Shown piece by piece: positions 2,292 to 31,999 of a stretch of DNA of 33,377 nt. The notes below the pieces were generated by a model. It saw only the letters and a program-made list of their open reading frames with translations. It did not search any database and was not told where the DNA came from. Made by a program: the position numbers and the translations under genes. Numbering within the stretch: position 1 is the stretch's first letter; every line of letters starts with the position of its first letter. This DNA is from a virus, in IMG/VR virus record IMGVR_UViG_3300037063_000241, positions 1-33,377 of that record; one strand, given 5' to 3'.

Positions 2292-2401
2292 ACGGGTCTT
2301 CAGAGGTTCCGCGGAGCGTCGAGTGAAAGTTCCGGCGAGAATCATCGCGGCGTCGAATCGTGGTAATGCTCACGCATCGCAACCGGGGGAACGATGCAGC
2401 C

Positions 2402-2716
2402 ATGGAAGCGTTTCTTCTTCACATCGGGATCAACCCCTCGGACGCCTTCGCGGCGTTCACCGGCGGCGTCTGCGCCGCGCTGGCAACCCAGGGCTCGAAG
2501 CCGACGCTGCTAGGCGTGATCAGCTCGATCGTCGTCGGCACCGGCGTCGGTTCCTACGGAGGCCAGGTGTTGCCGAGTTACGTCGGCGCCAAGCCGAGCG
2601 GCTTCGCGACGATGGTCATCGGGTTTTCCGGCCTGCCGATCCTGCTGCTCTTTCGAGCCGGCTTCACGAAGGCGCTCAAGATCAGGTTGTCGATCGCCGA
2701 ACGGAAAGGAGAATGA
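2402..2716 (+). CDS. small membrane protein, holin-like
   Basis: 104 aa from ATG 2402; upstream in-frame GTG 2360 is less likely. It has Gly-rich hydrophobic segments (about 15-30, 37-58 and 68-86) and a basic C-terminal tail (KALKIRLSIAERKGE). The pattern of a short N-terminal amphipathic helix, glycine-rich membrane helices and a charged tail fits phage holins. The SD before it is weak (GGGGGA about 13 bases upstream). It could also be a spanin-like or superinfection protein. Confidence 0.6.
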   Translation: MEAFLLHIGINPSDAFAAFTGGVCAALATQGSKPTLLGVISSIVVGTGVGSYGGQVLPSYVGAKPSGFATMVIGFSGLPILLLFRAGFTKALKIRLSIAERKGE

Positions 2717-2720
2717 TTCG

Positions 2721-3200
2721 ATGTATGACGTCGTGAGCCTTTACCTCAGCGACGAGATGGTGCGCTACGTCGTCGTCTGGACGATCGCCGTCTCCGCGCT
2801 GATGGTCTTCGTCATGGCCTTCGCGGTGACGCGCGGCGCCGGCTTCGGTTGTCCTCTCGCCCTCCTCCGCGGCGCTCAGCGCGTCTTCCTGTGCGCGCTC
2901 GCGATCTCGCTGGCGTACGTCGGAGCCTTCATCGCGGAGTACGCCGCCGACGCCGTTCCGCTCGGACCGTTGCTGATCCTGTTCCTCTGCTTCATGACGT
3001 CGACGTTGATCTCCGGAATCCGTCACCTGCTGGCCCCGGCGGTCGCCATCGACAACACCTGGGACGGTACCTGGCGCTTTCTTCGGGAGAAGGCGCGGAA
3101 CGTGTTGCTCGATCAGGGGCCGCCGCGTATGGTGCCGCCCGTGCGGCAGCGGGAGGTTTCCTCGCGTTGCCGTCGCCCTCCTTGGGCGTTTCCTCCCTAG
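2721..3200 (+). CDS. membrane protein with three predicted segments
   Basis: 159 aa, with predicted membrane segments near residues 14-36, 50-72 and 80-100, then a soluble basic C-terminal part ending in an Arg/Pro-rich tail. The AGGAG site lies in the end of the preceding gene. No family recognised. Three membrane proteins in a row next to exported muralytic enzymes suggests a holin/antiholin set. The last 25 residues (QREVSSRCRRPPWAF) look low quality and may be an unselected extension into the terminator. Confidence 0.65.
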   Translation: MYDVVSLYLSDEMVRYVVVWTIAVSALMVFVMAFAVTRGAGFGCPLALLRGAQRVFLCALAISLAYVGAFIAEYAADAVPLGPLLILFLCFMTSTLISGIRHLLAPAVAIDNTWDGTWRFLREKARNVLLDQGPPRMVPPVRQREVSSRCRRPPWAFPP

Positions 3201-6947: not shown

Positions 6948-7150
6948 GGCCGGCCTCCCGGGATCCGGTACTCGACGGTCGTCCAGTTCTTGAACGGCAC
7001 CACGCGCGTCTCCGCCGCCCCGGCCTTCGCCATCTCGCCCAGGACCTGCCGGACGCGCCCCACGGACCAGCAGCCGAGGGCGTCCCGCACGGCGCGGGGG
7101 TTCCGCCATTGACCGTTCAGGGAGCCGGCGACCTCGTCCGCGGCGCTCAT
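6944..7150 (-). CDS. small winged-helix-like protein
   Basis: 68 aa. The pattern WRNPRAVRDALGCWSVGRVRQVLGEMAKAG resembles a helix-turn-helix, followed by a short beta wing (VVPFKNWTTVEYRI). It is wedged between the truncated ATPase (which itself ends in winged-helix repeats) and the HNH gene, with 4-base overlaps on both sides. A DNA-binding role is inferred. Confidence 0.6.
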   Translation of the reverse strand: MSAADEVAGSLNGQWRNPRAVRDALGCWSVGRVRQVLGEMAKAGAAETRVVPFKNWTTVEYRIPGGRP

Positions 7151-7959
7151 TGGAACAGCCAGTCGGCCGCGCGCACCATGTCGCGGCCCGGATAGTCGAT
7201 CAGGGATTTGGTTCGGAGCGAGCTGCGGGGGTTGGTGTAGCCGGTCGACGTCGGCGAGTAGCCGGCGTCCTCCGCGGCGATGGCGTTCGGAACCGCGTCG
7301 GGGTGACGGGCGGCAACCGCGACGAGGATGCGGCCTTCCGGTCCTGGCAACAGCCGGACGACGTGATCAAGCAGAACGCCTGGAGGCCTCTCGCCGACCG
7401 CAATTGCGGCGCCGTCCGGCGTCAGGGCGACCTGATCGCGGGAAGGATATTCGAGCAAACCTTTCGTCCGCAGCCCGGAGCGCGGGTTGGTATAACCGGT
7501 AGATTTCGGGCTGTAGCCGGCCAGCCAAGCCACCTGGGCGTTGTTCGGTGCGGGGTGGCCCATAATTTTCCACGATGCCAAGGCGTTGATGATGCGTCGC
7601 TCCGGCCCCGGCAAATGATCGTCGGAAAGGTTCGTCTTTGGTGGACGAACCGGGACGGTTTTCGGGTTTGGTTGCGTCGCCTGCCGGACGATTGGAGCGG
7701 CCGCGTCCTTGACGTTGAGCGGGTAGTCGGCGTGGTCGCCGCCGAAGATCGGGATGGCGTGCCCGGCGCTCTTGCCCGTCCTGCTGAGCCGGAGGCCCCA
7801 GTACGCCGCGGTCGGGTCGACGATGACGACGCGCTCGTCGCGGTCGAGCGCCGGCTCGATGATCATCGCCTTGACCACGCTGGTCTTGCCGCTGCCGGTC
7901 GCGCCGAGGAACGCGATGTGCTTGTCGAGCGCAGCCTCGGGGATCAATACCTTCGTCAT
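7147..7959 (-). CDS. HerA/FtsK-like P-loop ATPase lacking its core, with two winged-helix repeats
   Basis: 270 aa from ATG 7959, overlapping the upstream stop. The N-terminus holds Walker A (GATGSGKT, 19-26) and a strand VVIVDPT, and follows the DUF87/HerA pattern up to IFGGDHADYPLN (71-82). The usual 200 or so residues carrying the second acidic strand, sensor and arginine finger are then absent. A Pro-rich joint leads directly to the C-terminal duplicated winged helices (118-181 and 206-264), whose AGYSP-x-STGYTNPRS segments are nearly identical. It may bind nucleotide but probably cannot act as a translocase. Confidence 0.75.
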   Translation of the reverse strand: MTKVLIPEAALDKHIAFLGATGSGKTSVVKAMIIEPALDRDERVVIVDPTAAYWGLRLSRTGKSAGHAIPIFGGDHADYPLNVKDAAAPIVRQATQPNPKTVPVRPPKTNLSDDHLPGPERRIINALASWKIMGHPAPNNAQVAWLAGYSPKSTGYTNPRSGLRTKGLLEYPSRDQVALTPDGAAIAVGERPPGVLLDHVVRLLPGPEGRILVAVAARHPDAVPNAIAAEDAGYSPTSTGYTNPRSSLRTKSLIDYPGRDMVRAADWLFQ

Positions 7960-8306
7960 GATGCAGCTTCCTGTTTGATATTTTCCAGCGCCAATCTGAT
8001 GACTTCCCAGTGCGCGATGACGCATTCCGCGACCGCTTGAAGGTGGCCGACATCGACGTGGCCGATCCGCGCTTTCGACTTCGTGGCGGAATTGACTTGG
8101 AAAGCCAAGGCATCGAGCGTCTTGTTGATGGCGGCCGGCGATTTAGAGCGAATGTCCGCGCAAATTGCCTTGAGGATCAACGTTTCCTCATCATCGTTTC
8201 TATGACCAAGCGCGCGCGCGACTTCCCGCTCATCCTCAATGATCGTTTCGAGCGCCTTTAATTTTTGCTCATCGGTGAACATCTTCTGGGTCACGCGATC
8301 CTCCAT
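7956..8306 (-). CDS. helical protein, unknown
   Basis: 116 aa, ATG 8306 with GAAGG upstream. Entirely helical (KALETIIEDEREVARALGH, then HWEVIRLALENIKQEAAS), no Cys pair or membrane segment. The start overlaps the end of the upstream gene by 16 bases; an alternative start is ATG 8282. No family recognised. Its stop is coupled to the ATPase start. Confidence 0.65.
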   Translation of the reverse strand: MEDRVTQKMFTDEQKLKALETIIEDEREVARALGHRNDDEETLILKAICADIRSKSPAAINKTLDALAFQVNSATKSKARIGHVDVGHLQAVAECVIAHWEVIRLALENIKQEAAS

Positions 8307-13787: not shown

Positions 13788-14268
13788 CGGGTTTTTCCTT
13801 CAGTGTTAACATCTGCCACGGCATTGTTTCCATCTTGCCGGTAAGAGGCGGCTTCATCAGGACGTCCGCGCCAGCGACATCGAATGCGGGCGGTTCGGCC
13901 GGCATCAGATCGTCCGCCTTCTTTAGGTCCTCCTCCGGAACGCGTGGTTCGATCTGATTCGCGTGAAACGTCATGAATCGCTCGCCCTGATCGGCAAACT
14001 TGATCCAGACCATCTCACCGTCGACACTCATGACCTCACCGGGGCGCCGCCCGGCTAGATCGCGGCTGATGAGTTGAATCGCGTCGCCGGCGTCCCAATG
14101 ACGGCTCCACAATTGCTCAATCTTTTCGGCAGCGACAGATATCTGGCTGTAGTCGCCGACGATGTTTAGGAAGACGAGGCTGTCACTTCGATCAACGTCG
14201 TGTTTCACGACCGCGTGCAAGACGACGATGTCGCCCTTGCGCGGCAAATATCCTTCAGGCAGTGGCAT
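13774..14268 (-). CDS. phage protein with KOW/SH3-like beta segments, unknown
   Basis: 164 aa from ATG 14268, with AGGAGAG upstream. Beta-rich: LPRKGDIVVLHAVVKHDVD, then RRPGEVMSVDGEMVWIKF and GERFMTFHANQIEP. Patterns of this kind occur in SH3-like barrels, but the assignment is weak. It overlaps the HNH gene by 14 bases and the coiled-coil gene by 14. Confidence 0.6.
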   Translation of the reverse strand: MPLPEGYLPRKGDIVVLHAVVKHDVDRSDSLVFLNIVGDYSQISVAAEKIEQLWSRHWDAGDAIQLISRDLAGRRPGEVMSVDGEMVWIKFADQGERFMTFHANQIEPRVPEEDLKKADDLMPAEPPAFDVAGADVLMKPPLTGKMETMPWQMLTLKEKPDVES

Positions 14269-14887
14269 CGGTACTCTCCTCTGTTGCGGCCGGAGCCGCG
14301 TGCAAAAAATTCCTGATGTCGCCGAGCAATCTCGGATTGTTGCCGCCGACGTTGCCTCCGCAATCAAGGACGCCCTGGAGCAGCGCGGAGCCGCGCCCGC
14401 GCCGCTTGCGGTCGCGCATCCTGATCTTCTCCGGCACGCTCATGTGACCGGCCTCGGTGTTGCAGGCGTGGCAGGCGAGGAAGAGATTGCTGATGTGATC
14501 CGGACCGCCGGCGGTCTTCGGGATCAGGTGTTCCTTCGTCGGCGGCTGGGCGTCGGTAAAGGGATCACCGCAATAAAAGCAGGCGTGGCCGTCGCGATCG
14601 AGGAGCGTCCGGATGATCGGCGCCTTCTTCCGCTGGCGCTGGCTCAGCCCGACGGGACGCTTCGTTATCCGGAAAGCGTTGTCGTTGGTCTTGAAGGCGT
14701 CCCATGCCGCGCGAGCGCGGCCGGTGAACGACCGGGTGCCGGATTTGTTGACGTAGATGATCGACGTCACGCCGTCGCCGCGGAAACGGACAACCTCCCA
14801 CTCGTTCGTGGTGACTAGGACCTCACCGCCACATCTGGCGATCCAGTCCTTGAAGCGGTCGACCTCGTCCTTCTTCCGCGTCTTCAT
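14255..14887 (-). CDS. HNH endonuclease
   Basis: 210 aa. A small N-terminal domain (WEVVRFRGDGVTSIIYVNKS) is followed by the HNH core: CFYCGDPF, TKEHLIPKTAGG, then NLFLACHACN. These give the two Cys pairs and the catalytic His of a treble-clef HNH (PF01844). A basic stretch (RMRDRKRRGRG) follows. Could act in recombination, packaging-related cleavage or host DNA breakdown. It lies second in the leftward operon, an early position. Confidence 0.82.
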   Translation of the reverse strand: MKTRKKDEVDRFKDWIARCGGEVLVTTNEWEVVRFRGDGVTSIIYVNKSGTRSFTGRARAAWDAFKTNDNAFRITKRPVGLSQRQRKKAPIIRTLLDRDGHACFYCGDPFTDAQPPTKEHLIPKTAGGPDHISNLFLACHACNTEAGHMSVPEKIRMRDRKRRGRGSALLQGVLDCGGNVGGNNPRLLGDIRNFLHAAPAATEESTDATA

Positions 14888-15045
14888 CGGACCAGCCAGA
14901 GAAGCGCGGCCGCATAGGGCAAGATTGCCCACAGTTGAACGCCGACGATGAGCGAAAGGCCGCCAGCGGCCAGGACAAAGGCCGGGGCATCGAATCGACG
15001 CTGCGGCGCGGAAAACCCGTTTAATGCAATCAGATCGCGTTTCAT
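14884..15045 (-). CDS. 53-aa membrane protein, first gene of the leftward operon
   Basis: The frame from ATG 15045 has a GAGGG SD and ends with a TGA overlapping the HNH start. A charged N-terminus (MKRDLIALNGFSAPQRRFD) precedes a hydrophobic hairpin (APAFVLAAGGLSLIVG and LWAILPYAAALLWLV). Being first after the predicted leftward promoter it would be strongly expressed early. Superinfection exclusion or another membrane role is possible; no family recognised. Confidence 0.6.
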   Translation of the reverse strand: MKRDLIALNGFSAPQRRFDAPAFVLAAGGLSLIVGVQLWAILPYAAALLWLVR

Positions 15046-15077
15046 CCATCGGCCCTCTTCGGTTCCGAAGCGAGTCG

Positions 15078-18445: not shown

Positions 18446-19037
18446 CAACTACGTTGGGGCGGTCGTTCTAGTTTTGTCGGAATATCCGAACGGCATCGTC
18501 GAGTTTGCCACCGATCCGCGCACGGGCCTTCAGGCCCAGGAGAAGTTTCGCGCGTTCATGCCGAACTCCGGTGAGGTCAAAGCTTTTTGCGACGAAGAGA
18601 TTCGCCGCGCGCAACGAATGGCTCAGCCCGCGACAACGTTTAGCCGGCGCGGTTACGCCCCGTTGCCGAGATATCCCGGCTCCCGCGCGAACGTCTTCGT
18701 GCACGCCGGCGCGCCGCAATATCCGGCGCTGCTCGAGCGGAGCCAGTCCCCGGGCGAGGACGAATGCGAGTGGCGGCCAAGCGACGACCACCGCGACGGC
18801 ATCTGGGTATCGCCGGCATGGATCGACAGCTACGGGATCGCAAAATGGCGCAGGCCGCCGGCGTCCGTGGCGCTGGCGCAAGGCCCGGACATAGTCACGC
18901 GCGAGTATATCGCCGCCGGGCTGGAGCCGCCGCCGCTTGGGGCCGATCGCGTCTCGCTCTCGATGCTCTTGCGCCGCGGCTACACGATCGCGGACGTCGA
19001 CGGCAAGCGCGAGCTGCTCTCGCCGGCGACGCGATGA
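18276..19037 (+). CDS. phage protein of unknown function
   Basis: 253 aa, start with GGGAGGACGACGAG. N-terminal helical part (REREAFLTRRAKLLFGSYR), a region DNYVGAVVLVLSEYPNGIVE, then FRAFMPNSGEVKAFCDEE, which resembles the C-terminal domain of replisome-loader partners in phages, then a poorly conserved C-terminal half. It overlaps the preceding gene by 170 bases; codon pattern and SD favour this frame in the overlap. Confidence 0.65.
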   Translation: MDQANEAQAAQPGNWKNEYERVRSRSPLDQREREAFLTRRAKLLFGSYRRDDASDPDNYVGAVVLVLSEYPNGIVEFATDPRTGLQAQEKFRAFMPNSGEVKAFCDEEIRRAQRMAQPATTFSRRGYAPLPRYPGSRANVFVHAGAPQYPALLERSQSPGEDECEWRPSDDHRDGIWVSPAWIDSYGIAKWRRPPASVALAQGPDIVTREYIAAGLEPPPLGADRVSLSMLLRRGYTIADVDGKRELLSPATR

Positions 19038-19840
19038 GCCAGGAAACCGCGCCGCGCTTCGCTAGTATCGGCGGCCATCACTCGCACCGATCCGGTACGG
19101 TCGAATGGCTGACGCCGCCGGAGATCATCGTCGCGCTCGGACCGTTCGATCTCGATCCTTGCGCGCCGTCGAACCAACCGTGGCCGACCGCGGCGCGGAC
19201 GTTCACCCGCGCCGACAACGGGCTGACGCGACCATGGACCGGGCGGGTGTGGCTGTGCCCGCCGTATACTAACGCGGAGATCGGACGCTGGCTGGCCCGC
19301 ATGGCCGACCACGACCGCGGGACCGCGCTGATCTTCGCGCGGACGGACACCGACGCCTTCTTCGAGCACGTCTGGAATCGGGCGACCGCGCTGCTCTTCA
19401 TGAGGGGCCGGATCAACTTCCACCATGGTCCCGGCCACGTCGACAGGAAGACGAACCGACCGATCCCTGTCGGTTCGCGCGCCAAGGGCAACGCCGGGGC
19501 GCCGACGGTGCTGTGCGCCTATGGGGTCGACGACGCGGACGTCCTCGCCGCCTGCAAGGTCGACGGGCGGTTCGTCCCGCTCCGCATCGCGCGATCCGTC
19601 GTCGTGTCACTTTTCGGCGGTTTAATTAAAAGCCGGGAAAGTAACGCGACGTGGGCTCAGGCGCTCGCGGACTTCTTCGCCGACCGCTCCGGCCCGGTCG
19701 CGCTCGACGATCTCTACCGGCACTTCGCTGGCCACCGGAAGGCCTCGACGAACCGCAACTTCGATGCCAAGTTGCGTCAGCAGCTTCAACAGGGACCGTA
19801 TCGTCGCGTTGATCGCGGCGTGTGGGAGGCGCGCCGATGA
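19034..19840 (+). CDS. phage Dam-type N6-adenine methyltransferase with C-terminal HTH
   Basis: 268 aa, ATGA-coupled. WLTPPEIIVALGPFDLDPCA, TRADNGLTRPW, then WLCPPYTN (CPPY, 75-78, a variant of DPPY) and ALIFARTDTDAFFEHVW are the marks of the phage DNA_N6-MTase family. After residue 203 a separate domain follows (TWAQALADFFADRSGPVALD, DLYRHFAG, RRVDRGVWEAR) with the layout of a HARE-HTH domain. That fused HTH could read DNA sequence or methylation state. Confidence 0.85.
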   Translation: MSQETAPRFASIGGHHSHRSGTVEWLTPPEIIVALGPFDLDPCAPSNQPWPTAARTFTRADNGLTRPWTGRVWLCPPYTNAEIGRWLARMADHDRGTALIFARTDTDAFFEHVWNRATALLFMRGRINFHHGPGHVDRKTNRPIPVGSRAKGNAGAPTVLCAYGVDDADVLAACKVDGRFVPLRIARSVVVSLFGGLIKSRESNATWAQALADFFADRSGPVALDDLYRHFAGHRKASTNRNFDAKLRQQLQQGPYRRVDRGVWEARR

Positions 19841-27846: not shown

Positions 27847-28527
27847 ATGTATATAATTCCCAAAATAATGGCGTCTTGGAATAAGGGAACAAGCGCGGGA
27901 CGGGATTTTCTGGAAGCCAATATTGGCTATACCGGCGACGGTTGCCTGATCTGGCCATTTTATAGAAACCCAGGCCACGGGCGCGGAACCTTTGGCGTTG
28001 ATGGCGAAGTCCACTACGCGCACCGCTATATGTGCGAACTTGTTAATGGATCACCGCCGACGCCAGAGCACCAAGCGTCGCATTCTTGCGGCAAAGGGCA
28101 CGAAGGGTGCGTCGATCCTCGGCATCTGTCGTGGGCGACTAATTCCAAGAATCAATTGGATCGGCGCGGACATGGTACGCATATCAGCAATACACACGGA
28201 AACCGCGGAAAGATGACGCGAGCGCAAATTGCAGAATTGCAAAGCCTCAAGGGAAGAATGTTACAGACAGAGCGTATGGCAAAGTTTGGAATATCACAGG
28301 GAACGGTTCAGTATTGGCACGGCGTTCGCGCACAGCGGCAGGCCGCACAGCCTCCGATCGATCAAAAGATTGACGCGGCCTTAGATGGTAAGCCAATGCC
28401 GATCAAAGAGTTGGCGCAGAAAATGTACGGTAATACTCGACAAGGAGTTGCCATTATATCGCAGTGGATTCCACACCGTGGCTTTGAGTTTCGCGATGGT
28501 GTTGTGTTTCCGCGCACGTCTCAGTGA
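27847..28527 (+). CDS. HNH endonuclease (homing-type, HNH_3)
   Basis: 226 aa, SD CAGGGAG. YAHRYMCELVNGSPP, HQASHSCGKGHEGCVDPRHL, then SWATNSKNQLDRRGHGTH is the HNH_3 core found in free-standing phage homing nucleases. A C-terminal part (MTRAQIAELQSLKGRM, then FGISQGTVQYWHGV) gives a DNA-binding HTH as in NUMOD-type tails. Such genes are mobile, and its lower GC at the start fits a late arrival. Confidence 0.85.
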   Translation: MYIIPKIMASWNKGTSAGRDFLEANIGYTGDGCLIWPFYRNPGHGRGTFGVDGEVHYAHRYMCELVNGSPPTPEHQASHSCGKGHEGCVDPRHLSWATNSKNQLDRRGHGTHISNTHGNRGKMTRAQIAELQSLKGRMLQTERMAKFGISQGTVQYWHGVRAQRQAAQPPIDQKIDAALDGKPMPIKELAQKMYGNTRQGVAIISQWIPHRGFEFRDGVVFPRTSQ

Positions 28528-30447: not shown

Positions 30448-31773
30448 ATGCTCGATACCGCTCCCGGCCGGGATCACAATCGTCCGCCAGAGCTGCTGCC
30501 GTTCGAGGCGACGACGGCCAAGGTGCAACTGCCGACCTTCCACGCCGCCCAGGCGAAACTTCGCTGGGTCATGCAACACGCCAGGTTTGTGGTCGCGCGC
30601 TGCGGCCGGCGCTGGGGCAAGAACGTCGTCGGCGAGGCGGTGGCGGCGGACGACGCCGCGAAGGGACTCCTGGTCGGCTGGTTCGCCCCGGAGAACCGGC
30701 GCGCGGCACGATCGTTCGAGGTCATCGAGGAGATGCTTCACCCGATCAAGAAGAGCTCGTCGAAGACAGACCACGTCATCCGGACGATCACGGGAGGCCA
30801 GATCGACTTCTGGTCGCTCGAGGATGAGAACGCCGGCCGCGGTCGCAAATATCACCGGGCGATCGGCGACGAGATGGCCTTCACGAAGCCGAAGACGATC
30901 GATATCTGGACGAAGTCGATCAAGCCGACGCTGCTCGACTACAGCGGCCGCGCGCTGATGATGTCGAACACAAACGGGATCGACCCGGATAACTTCCTTT
31001 ACGATATCTGCCATAACCCGGCGCACGGCTTCGTCCAGTTTCACGCGCCGACGCGATCGAACCCGTTCCTGCCGCGGGCTGAGGTCGCCGCGCTCCAGGC
31101 CGACAATCAGCCGCTCGTTTATCAGCAGGAATACCTCGCCGAGTTCGTCGACTGGTCCGGCGCCGCGTTCTTCTCTCGCGACAAGCTGCTGGTCAACGGC
31201 GAGCCGATCGAGTTCCCCGTGCGCTGTGAGGCGGTCTTCGCGATCATTGATTCGGCCACGAAGACCGGGCGCAAGAACGACGGCACCGGCGTGGTCTACT
31301 ACGCGGTCGTCCGCAATATCATCCGGCCGGTGAGCGGCGACGGAAAGATCGGCCCGGAGCATCGGCTGGTCATCCTCGATTGGGATCTCGTCCAGATCGA
31401 GGGCGACCTGCTCATCACCTGGCTACCGACGGTCAATCAAAACCTCCTGGCGTTCGCAGCGGAATGTAAATCGCGCACCGGCTCGCTCGGCGCTTTCATT
31501 GAGGACAAGGCCTCCGGCATGATCCTGCTGCAGCAAGCCGCGCGCGCCGGCATGGCGGCGACGCCGATCGATTCGAAGCTGACGGCCCTCGGCAAGGATG
31601 AGCGGGCGATCTCCGTCAGTGGCTACGTCTACCGCGGCCTCGTGAAGATGAGCCGCCGGGCATACGACAAGGTGACGATATACAAGGGCACAACGCGCAA
31701 TCATCTATTGGGGGAAGTCGTTGGCTTCCGAGTCGGCGATAATACGCCGGGTCGGTCCGACGACTTGCTTTGA
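30448..31773 (+). CDS. terL: terminase large subunit (C-terminus continues in +1 frame)
   Basis: 441 aa in the zero frame. ATPase: RCGRRWGKN (Walker A variant, 51-59) and AIGDEM (Walker B, 138-143). Nuclease: IIDSA (Asp268), FIEDKASG (Glu352/Asp353) and RSDDLL (Asp438/439). The frame stops with TGA right after DDLL, but the +1 frame directly continues DCFCYGIAIALGDSAGF, the usual end of this family (RaDDLLDAfxYGiaiA), to TAG 31823-31825. A complete protein of 458 aa therefore needs a +1 shift. The enzyme packages DNA into heads and makes the cuts. Confidence 0.92.
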   Translation: MLDTAPGRDHNRPPELLPFEATTAKVQLPTFHAAQAKLRWVMQHARFVVARCGRRWGKNVVGEAVAADDAAKGLLVGWFAPENRRAARSFEVIEEMLHPIKKSSSKTDHVIRTITGGQIDFWSLEDENAGRGRKYHRAIGDEMAFTKPKTIDIWTKSIKPTLLDYSGRALMMSNTNGIDPDNFLYDICHNPAHGFVQFHAPTRSNPFLPRAEVAALQADNQPLVYQQEYLAEFVDWSGAAFFSRDKLLVNGEPIEFPVRCEAVFAIIDSATKTGRKNDGTGVVYYAVVRNIIRPVSGDGKIGPEHRLVILDWDLVQIEGDLLITWLPTVNQNLLAFAAECKSRTGSLGAFIEDKASGMILLQQAARAGMAATPIDSKLTALGKDERAISVSGYVYRGLVKMSRRAYDKVTIYKGTTRNHLLGEVVGFRVGDNTPGRSDDLL

Positions 31774-31774
31774 C
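31768..31774 (+). other. candidate +1 frameshift site CTT TGA C
   Basis: The heptamer CTTTGAC at the end of the zero-frame terminase gene is the same as the RF2 (prfB) +1 frameshift site. Moving one base forward on CTT (to TTT) reads GAC TGC TTT TGC TAC and restores the family C-terminus. The SD-like stimulator of prfB, a few bases upstream, is not evident here. A one-T insertion or sequencing error would look the same. Confidence 0.55.
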
Positions 31775-31882
31775 TGCTTTTGCTACGGAATAGCGATTGC
31801 TCTAGGGGATTCGGCAGGTTTTTAGGGTATAAACAGCGCGGAGCATGTTGTCATCGTCGCGTTCTTCAAGGACGGTGAGTTC

Positions 31883-31999
31883 ATGCACATGCAGGATGCC
31901 GGTTCGGCTCCGATGCCTTTACCGGATCTCTACAAGCGGCTGCTCTCAGCTCGGGAGATTCTCGATGCTTCCGGTGGTGAGGATGTGGCGCTAAGCTAA
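31883..31999 (+). CDS. small protein, start codon uncertain
   Basis: From ATG 31883: MHMQDAGSAPMPLPDLYKRL and 18 more residues (38 aa). The frame is open further back to TAG 31823 and reads protein-like there (HVVIVAFFKDGEF) but has no ATG, GTG or TTG. So either the start is as given (weak GGTGAG SD) or the true start has been lost. The next gene follows after 47 bases. Confidence 0.4.
   Translation: MHMQDAGSAPMPLPDLYKRLLSAREILDASGGEDVALS

Follow-up and report, generated by a model that had tools for sequence, protein, structure and literature searches.

The window, that is, the whole stretch of 33,377 nucleotides of phage DNA analysed here, contains a gene for the large terminase subunit (terL) that is interrupted close to its 3′ end. 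As the sequence-only reading had described, the zero frame ends at RSDDLL followed by TGA, and the +1 frame continues into the C-terminus of the TerL family. The gene consists of the following parts:

30448 to 31773, plus strand: zero-frame open reading frame of terL, 441 amino acids, ending in GRSDDLL followed by TGA (PHROG_2 TerL, 3.4e-27; Pfam Terminase_6N; AlphaFold2 model)
31768 to 31774, plus strand: putative +1 shift heptamer CTT TGA C, with CTT (31768-31770) as the P-site CUU, TGA (31771-31773) as the A-site UGA, then C
31772 to 31825, plus strand: +1-frame tail with codons at 31772-31822 encoding DCFCYGIAIALGDSAGF and a TAG stop at 31823-31825 (pN/pS 0.21; Asp442 invariant)

The AlphaFold2 model of the +1 TerL fusion had a mean pLDDT of 84.8, and Foldseek matched it to T4 gp17 and to the TerL proteins of phages D6E, Sf6 and HK97. 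The protein has the N-terminal ATPase and the C-terminal nuclease fold of a TerL, including the third acidic motif, which is SDD at residues 437-439. In the model, the terminal helix spans residues 439-452, so the zero-frame stop at residue 441 falls three residues into it. Asp442, the first residue past the shift, is invariant across 24 homologues, and alignment to relatives places DDLL and DCF contiguously within the family sequence. The helix and the invariant Asp bear out the earlier suggestion that the +1 tail is the C-terminal helix of the family. In G20c, the third acidic motif is H427-D428-D429 (PMC5389553), and the Ser-Asp-Asp before Asp442 in the window would be its counterpart by motif position. 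The earlier suggestion that two forms of the enzyme could be made holds only in part. The short zero-frame product does keep the Ser-Asp-Asp motif. However, it lacks Asp442, the residue shared by all 24 homologues, and ends within the terminal helix; therefore, it is more likely to be non-functional than a second working enzyme, and any role for it would be conjectural.

Elsewhere on the contig, PHROG matches mark HNH endonuclease genes at 14255-15049 (minus strand) and 27847-28527 (plus strand) and a phage DNA methyltransferase gene at 18764-19840 (plus strand; phrog_111, E 1.4e-38). Far from terL and on the opposite strand, the open reading frame at 7147-8025 (minus strand) showed a weak TerL-family match (phrog_2666, 7.5e-6, residues 20-79); it probably encodes another ATPase or reflects a chance match.

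Conservation of the heptamer and constraint on the +1 tail

The CTTTGAC heptamer occurs five times in the window, compared with approximately three expected, so the heptamer by itself is not rare and what counts is where it stands. We found it at the same terL codon in independent contigs of the window phage (L002/L084 and L003/L096) and in four other TerL lineages. We scanned IMG/VR with a pattern that left both the inserted base and the Leu codon preceding the Asp codon free, and retrieved 18 interrupted contigs from many metagenomes. A separate scan for the uninterrupted form of the site gave at least 120 matches. All 18 interrupted contigs read exactly CTTTGAC, that is, CUU, UGA and C as in an RF2-type site; no other inserted base or Leu codon was seen in the scan, and among the IMG/VR relatives the frame was broken at this codon only where the sequence was CTTTGAC. 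These contigs represent five TerL lineages with pairwise TerL body identities of 64-76%: the window phage (L084/L002 and L096/L003), the L082 group (13 contigs from different metagenomes), L090/L012, L094 and L098/L016. The conservation among homologous terminases that the sequence-only reading had proposed to check was thus found in every +1-interrupted allele of all five lineages. That reading had also held that relatives with an uninterrupted frame and no slip motif would count against it. Such relatives exist, including L004, whose TerL is 97% identical to that of the window, but they do not overturn the frameshift, because they carry a different 3′ allele that lacks the hairpin described below, which argues for an exchanged trait rather than an error.

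The codons beyond the stop behave as coding sequence in the +1 frame, as expected for an RF2-type site. Over the 17 post-shift codons of the five lineages, we counted 42, 26 and 104 changes at the first, second and third codon positions, respectively, so that most changes fell at third positions. The pooled pN/pS of the +1 frame was 0.21, compared with more than 1.2 in the other frames; none of 2000 column shuffles reached a value as low as that of the +1 frame. The pattern of changes in these lineages indicates that purifying selection acts on the post-shift codons in the +1 frame alone. Their synonymous sites are approximately saturated, which indicates that the constraint acts on the protein. 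Synonymous-codon conservation within the gene peaks just before the shift (0.74 versus a mean of 0.55) and is 0.41 after it, and the gene's most strongly conserved synonymous block falls among the 22 codons that precede the shift. Taken together, the heptamer conservation and the constraint on the tail strongly support the original proposal that TerL is completed by a +1 shift at an RF2-type CTTTGAC.

Four MAGs that contain related terminases have prfB genes with a Shine-Dalgarno (SD) sequence and CTTTGA(C/T), so hosts of this kind shift at the heptamer. The frameshift motif was absent from 297 genomes belonging to the same order as L101, a host-like MAG labelled Rhizobiales.

The upstream hairpin and the probable replacement of the 3′ end

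Known prfB sites contain an SD-like run three bases before CUU (PMC12421855). An SD-like purine run 3 nt 5′ of CUU was not found in any of the five lineages, all of which have GACGACTTG or a similar sequence directly before CTT. The absence of a prfB-like stimulator, already remarked upon from the window alone, is therefore confirmed, and we did not class the site as prfB-type and SD-stimulated. In place of the SD, a two-part hairpin is predicted directly upstream of the heptamer:

31715 to 31724, plus strand: 5′ arm of the outer stem, AAGTCGTTGG, pairing with 31757-31766
31728 to 31738, plus strand: 5′ arm of the inner stem, CCGAGTCGGCG, pairing with 31745-31755
31745 to 31755, plus strand: 3′ arm of the inner stem, CGCCGGGTCGG, ending 12 nt 5′ of CTT
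31757 to 31766, plus strand: 3′ arm of the outer stem, CCGACGACTT, ending 1 nt 5′ of CTT

The hairpin comprises a 10 bp outer stem and an 11-pair inner stem, and its predicted stability ranges from -33 to -42 kcal/mol in the five lineages (window MFE -37.3, z -6.3); L094 uses a slightly different pairing register in the inner stem, and 98% of outer-stem cells are paired across six sequences. The fold is both stable and specific to the shifting alleles. The 69 nt upstream of the shift had a mean MFE of -36.6 (z -5.5) in the five lineages, compared with -18.1 (z -0.27) in 89 uninterrupted relatives, none of which reached -33; L018, which has no frameshift, folds to -32.1. In each lineage, the native fold was better than 94-99.5% of synonymous recodings, and a covariance model scored the frameshift alleles at 88-105 bits and other sequences at 34 bits or less. 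The amino-acid motif GEVVGFR, encoded by the 5′ arm, retrieved precisely the 18 frameshift contigs. At the stem-forming residue, 8 of 8 frameshift alleles encode Glu and 134 of 135 others Gln, as though the protein sequence had been adjusted to suit the RNA structure. The distance from hairpin to heptamer is fixed and ungapped in all lineages. Compensatory covariation was confined to one pair changed on both sides and did not exceed that in shuffles, owing to the near invariance of the stems; the stem was therefore judged by the stability, synonymous-recoding and allele-specificity tests. The outer stem follows in part from GC-rich codons for VV and DD.

On a TerL body tree built without the 3′ end, the distribution of the frameshift allele is patchy, and the frameshift label needs five changes, which are forced by well-supported branches. 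Near-twins differ in the trait: L004 lacks the frameshift that the window phage has, and L018 lacks that of L098. Downstream of the +1 stop, the window contains the following:

31829 to 31999, plus strand: inserted DNA with a 56-aa open frame in the frame of the +1 tail, first ATG at 31883, absent from L004
32000 to 32047, plus strand: remnant of an older terL 3′ end, ICYGATIALGDSEGF and stop

From 32006 on, the window is approximately 99% identical to L004, where the matching sequence lies downstream of a different insert of L004's own. Inserted DNA followed by a leftover older terL 3′ end is the arrangement of the frameshift alleles; the remnants are clear in the window and in L098 (GVAIALGNAEGF) and weaker and partial, as read from the sequence, in L090, L094 and L082. 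The insert of L016 has a GIY-YIG-like open reading frame with a NUMOD3 motif (weak Pfam scores), and a GIY-YIG-like open reading frame also follows terL in the uninterrupted L101. Among the uninterrupted phages, L004, L190 and L013 likewise have a second terL 3′ end downstream, and L004 has a minus-strand HNH gene at its terL 3′ end (2352-3150). The occurrence of inserts and second 3′ ends in both frameshift and uninterrupted phages marks the terL 3′ end as an insertion hot-spot, and the comparison indicates that the hairpin and the shift belong to one class of replacement 3′ end. We suggest that related phages exchange the frameshifting 3′ end as an allele, in the form of a cassette that inserts at the 3′ end of terL. 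Spread by such a 3′-end-replacing cassette is, in our view, quite likely. We are less sure of endonuclease-driven homing as the engine of this spread and consider it evenly balanced; the 56-aa open frame of the window insert has no endonuclease domain and no Pfam or PHROG match, and its only relatives found were in other copies of the same phage.

This open frame lies directly after the TAG of the +1 tail, with no ATG until 31883, and may represent a gene in decay or depend on an unusual start. In L082, L090 and L098, the first base of the +1 stop is followed 2-5 bases later by an ATG (TGATG in L098), and coupling to frameshifted ribosomes may therefore allow the inserted open reading frame to be translated there.

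A putative mechanism and its alternatives

Drawing on sequence comparisons of the heptamer, the +1 tail, the hairpin and its allele specificity, the patchy distribution and the duplicated remnant 3′ end, we propose that full-length TerL is, very probably, made by programmed +1 ribosomal frameshifting. In this reading, the shift would be RF2-sensitive and hairpin-assisted and would be carried on a 3′-end-replacing cassette. A ribosome with CUU in the P site and a poorly terminating UGA-C in the A site would slip to UUU and then read GAC TGC onward, which would give the nuclease domain its last helix. While CUU occupies the P site, the ribosome would enclose the 3′ strand of the outer stem, and the inner stem would have refolded at the mRNA exit; closing of the outer stem would favour forward slippage. 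This geometry is inferred, and the efficiency of the shift would be expected to depend on the level of RF2. The hairpin is a likely +1 stimulator on the sequence evidence. An artificial hairpin upstream of CUUUGA stimulated +1 slippage by E. coli ribosomes to approximately 60% of the SD effect (PMC6321510). However, the published effect was seen in vitro only without RF2 (PMC6321510), which weakens the hairpin-stimulation reading.

The terL site shares with prfB the CTT-TGA-C heptamer, the +1 direction and a UGA-C stop read by RF2, but prfB shifts at its 5′ end and has an SD-like AGGGGG three bases upstream, whereas terL shifts at its 3′ end and has the hairpin instead. All CUU-stop +1 entries in RECODE are prfB (PMC10885494). 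The construct of Huang et al. 2018 (PMC6321510) resembles terL in placing a stable stem upstream of the same slippery site, where it acts on 70S ribosomes like an internal SD; it was an artificial reporter with a 12 bp GC-rich hairpin, whereas the terL hairpin is natural, conserved and two-part. A further comparison is T4 gene 60, where a homing endonuclease gene has split the topoisomerase gene and where closure of a 5′ stem at the mRNA exit is believed to pull the mRNA (PMC5009743). Gene 60 is likewise a phage gene with a stop after the take-off codon, a 5′ stem at the mRNA exit and a homing-endonuclease history; however, it is bypassed over a 50-nt gap to a matched landing codon, and terL makes a one-base slip with neither a long untranslated gap nor such a codon. 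When we searched the literature for frameshifted terminase genes, the sole result was the bypass suggested for the phage Hau3 terminase (PMC5009743), which is linked to UUA codons in Streptomyces rather than to an RF2-type +1 shift.

A sequencing or assembly error of one base, or the decay of terL in a dead prophage, would require only a single inserted T, and the close uninterrupted L004 fits such an origin. We rejected it as extremely improbable, since all 18 contigs, spread over five lineages, have the same heptamer (one lineage alone accounts for 13, from different metagenomes), the scan revealed no alternative inserted base or codon, and the pN/pS of the +1 tail reveals purifying selection. 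Hardly more credible is an intron or translational bypass joining DDLL to the downstream copy, ICYGATIALGDSEGF, which the second terL 3′ end and the suspected bypassing in Hau3 (PMC5009743) might bring to mind. We rejected this as well, because the join would leave out the Asp invariant in 24 homologues, the search of Rfam gave no match, to introns or otherwise, only a few bases separate the copies in L094, and the +1 tail already provides a complete C-terminus under selection.

Two further alternatives accept the frameshift. Instead of acting on the ribosome, the hairpin might serve at the DNA level, in endonuclease recognition or recombination, or in mRNA processing, as an RNase site; in favour of this, the allele is passed between phages at a position that endonuclease genes also occupy, and the hairpin would sit at the left boundary of the cassette. 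We think this unlikely, given that L094 keeps the hairpin although almost no insert remains, that it is missing from uninterrupted alleles carrying an insert at this site (L004, L190 and L013), and that its distance to the heptamer is fixed and ungapped in all lineages. It is also rather improbable, slightly more so, that the site is a corrected accident, in which an inserted T was tolerated through leakage of full-length TerL at CTTTGAC and serves no regulation. Few copies suffice for a packaging motor, CUUUGA shows weak shifting even in the absence of stimulators (PMC6321510), and there is no SD. Yet the site is kept in five diverged lineages, in which changes to amino acids and codons form a specific stable hairpin beside the heptamer, which argues that the site is maintained and not merely tolerated. 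At slightly less than even odds we place a more far-reaching reading: a natural RF2-type +1 site outside prfB that uses a refolding upstream hairpin rather than an SD, completes an essential phage packaging enzyme and spreads on a mobile cassette, which would thereby repair, by recoding, the gene that it breaks.

Several soil-type phages appear to complete an essential packaging enzyme only when the ribosome passes over a single base at a stop signal that had been known from the release-factor-2 gene of bacteria. Terminases of this kind will be truncated or marked as broken by gene callers. If the proposed mechanism is true, phage genome packaging would be under the control of host release factor 2, and a natural upstream hairpin would do the job of an internal SD at a +1 site, an effect found in the literature so far from artificial constructs. 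The locus would also make it possible to test how mobile cassettes can enter the 3′ end of an essential gene and leave that gene working.
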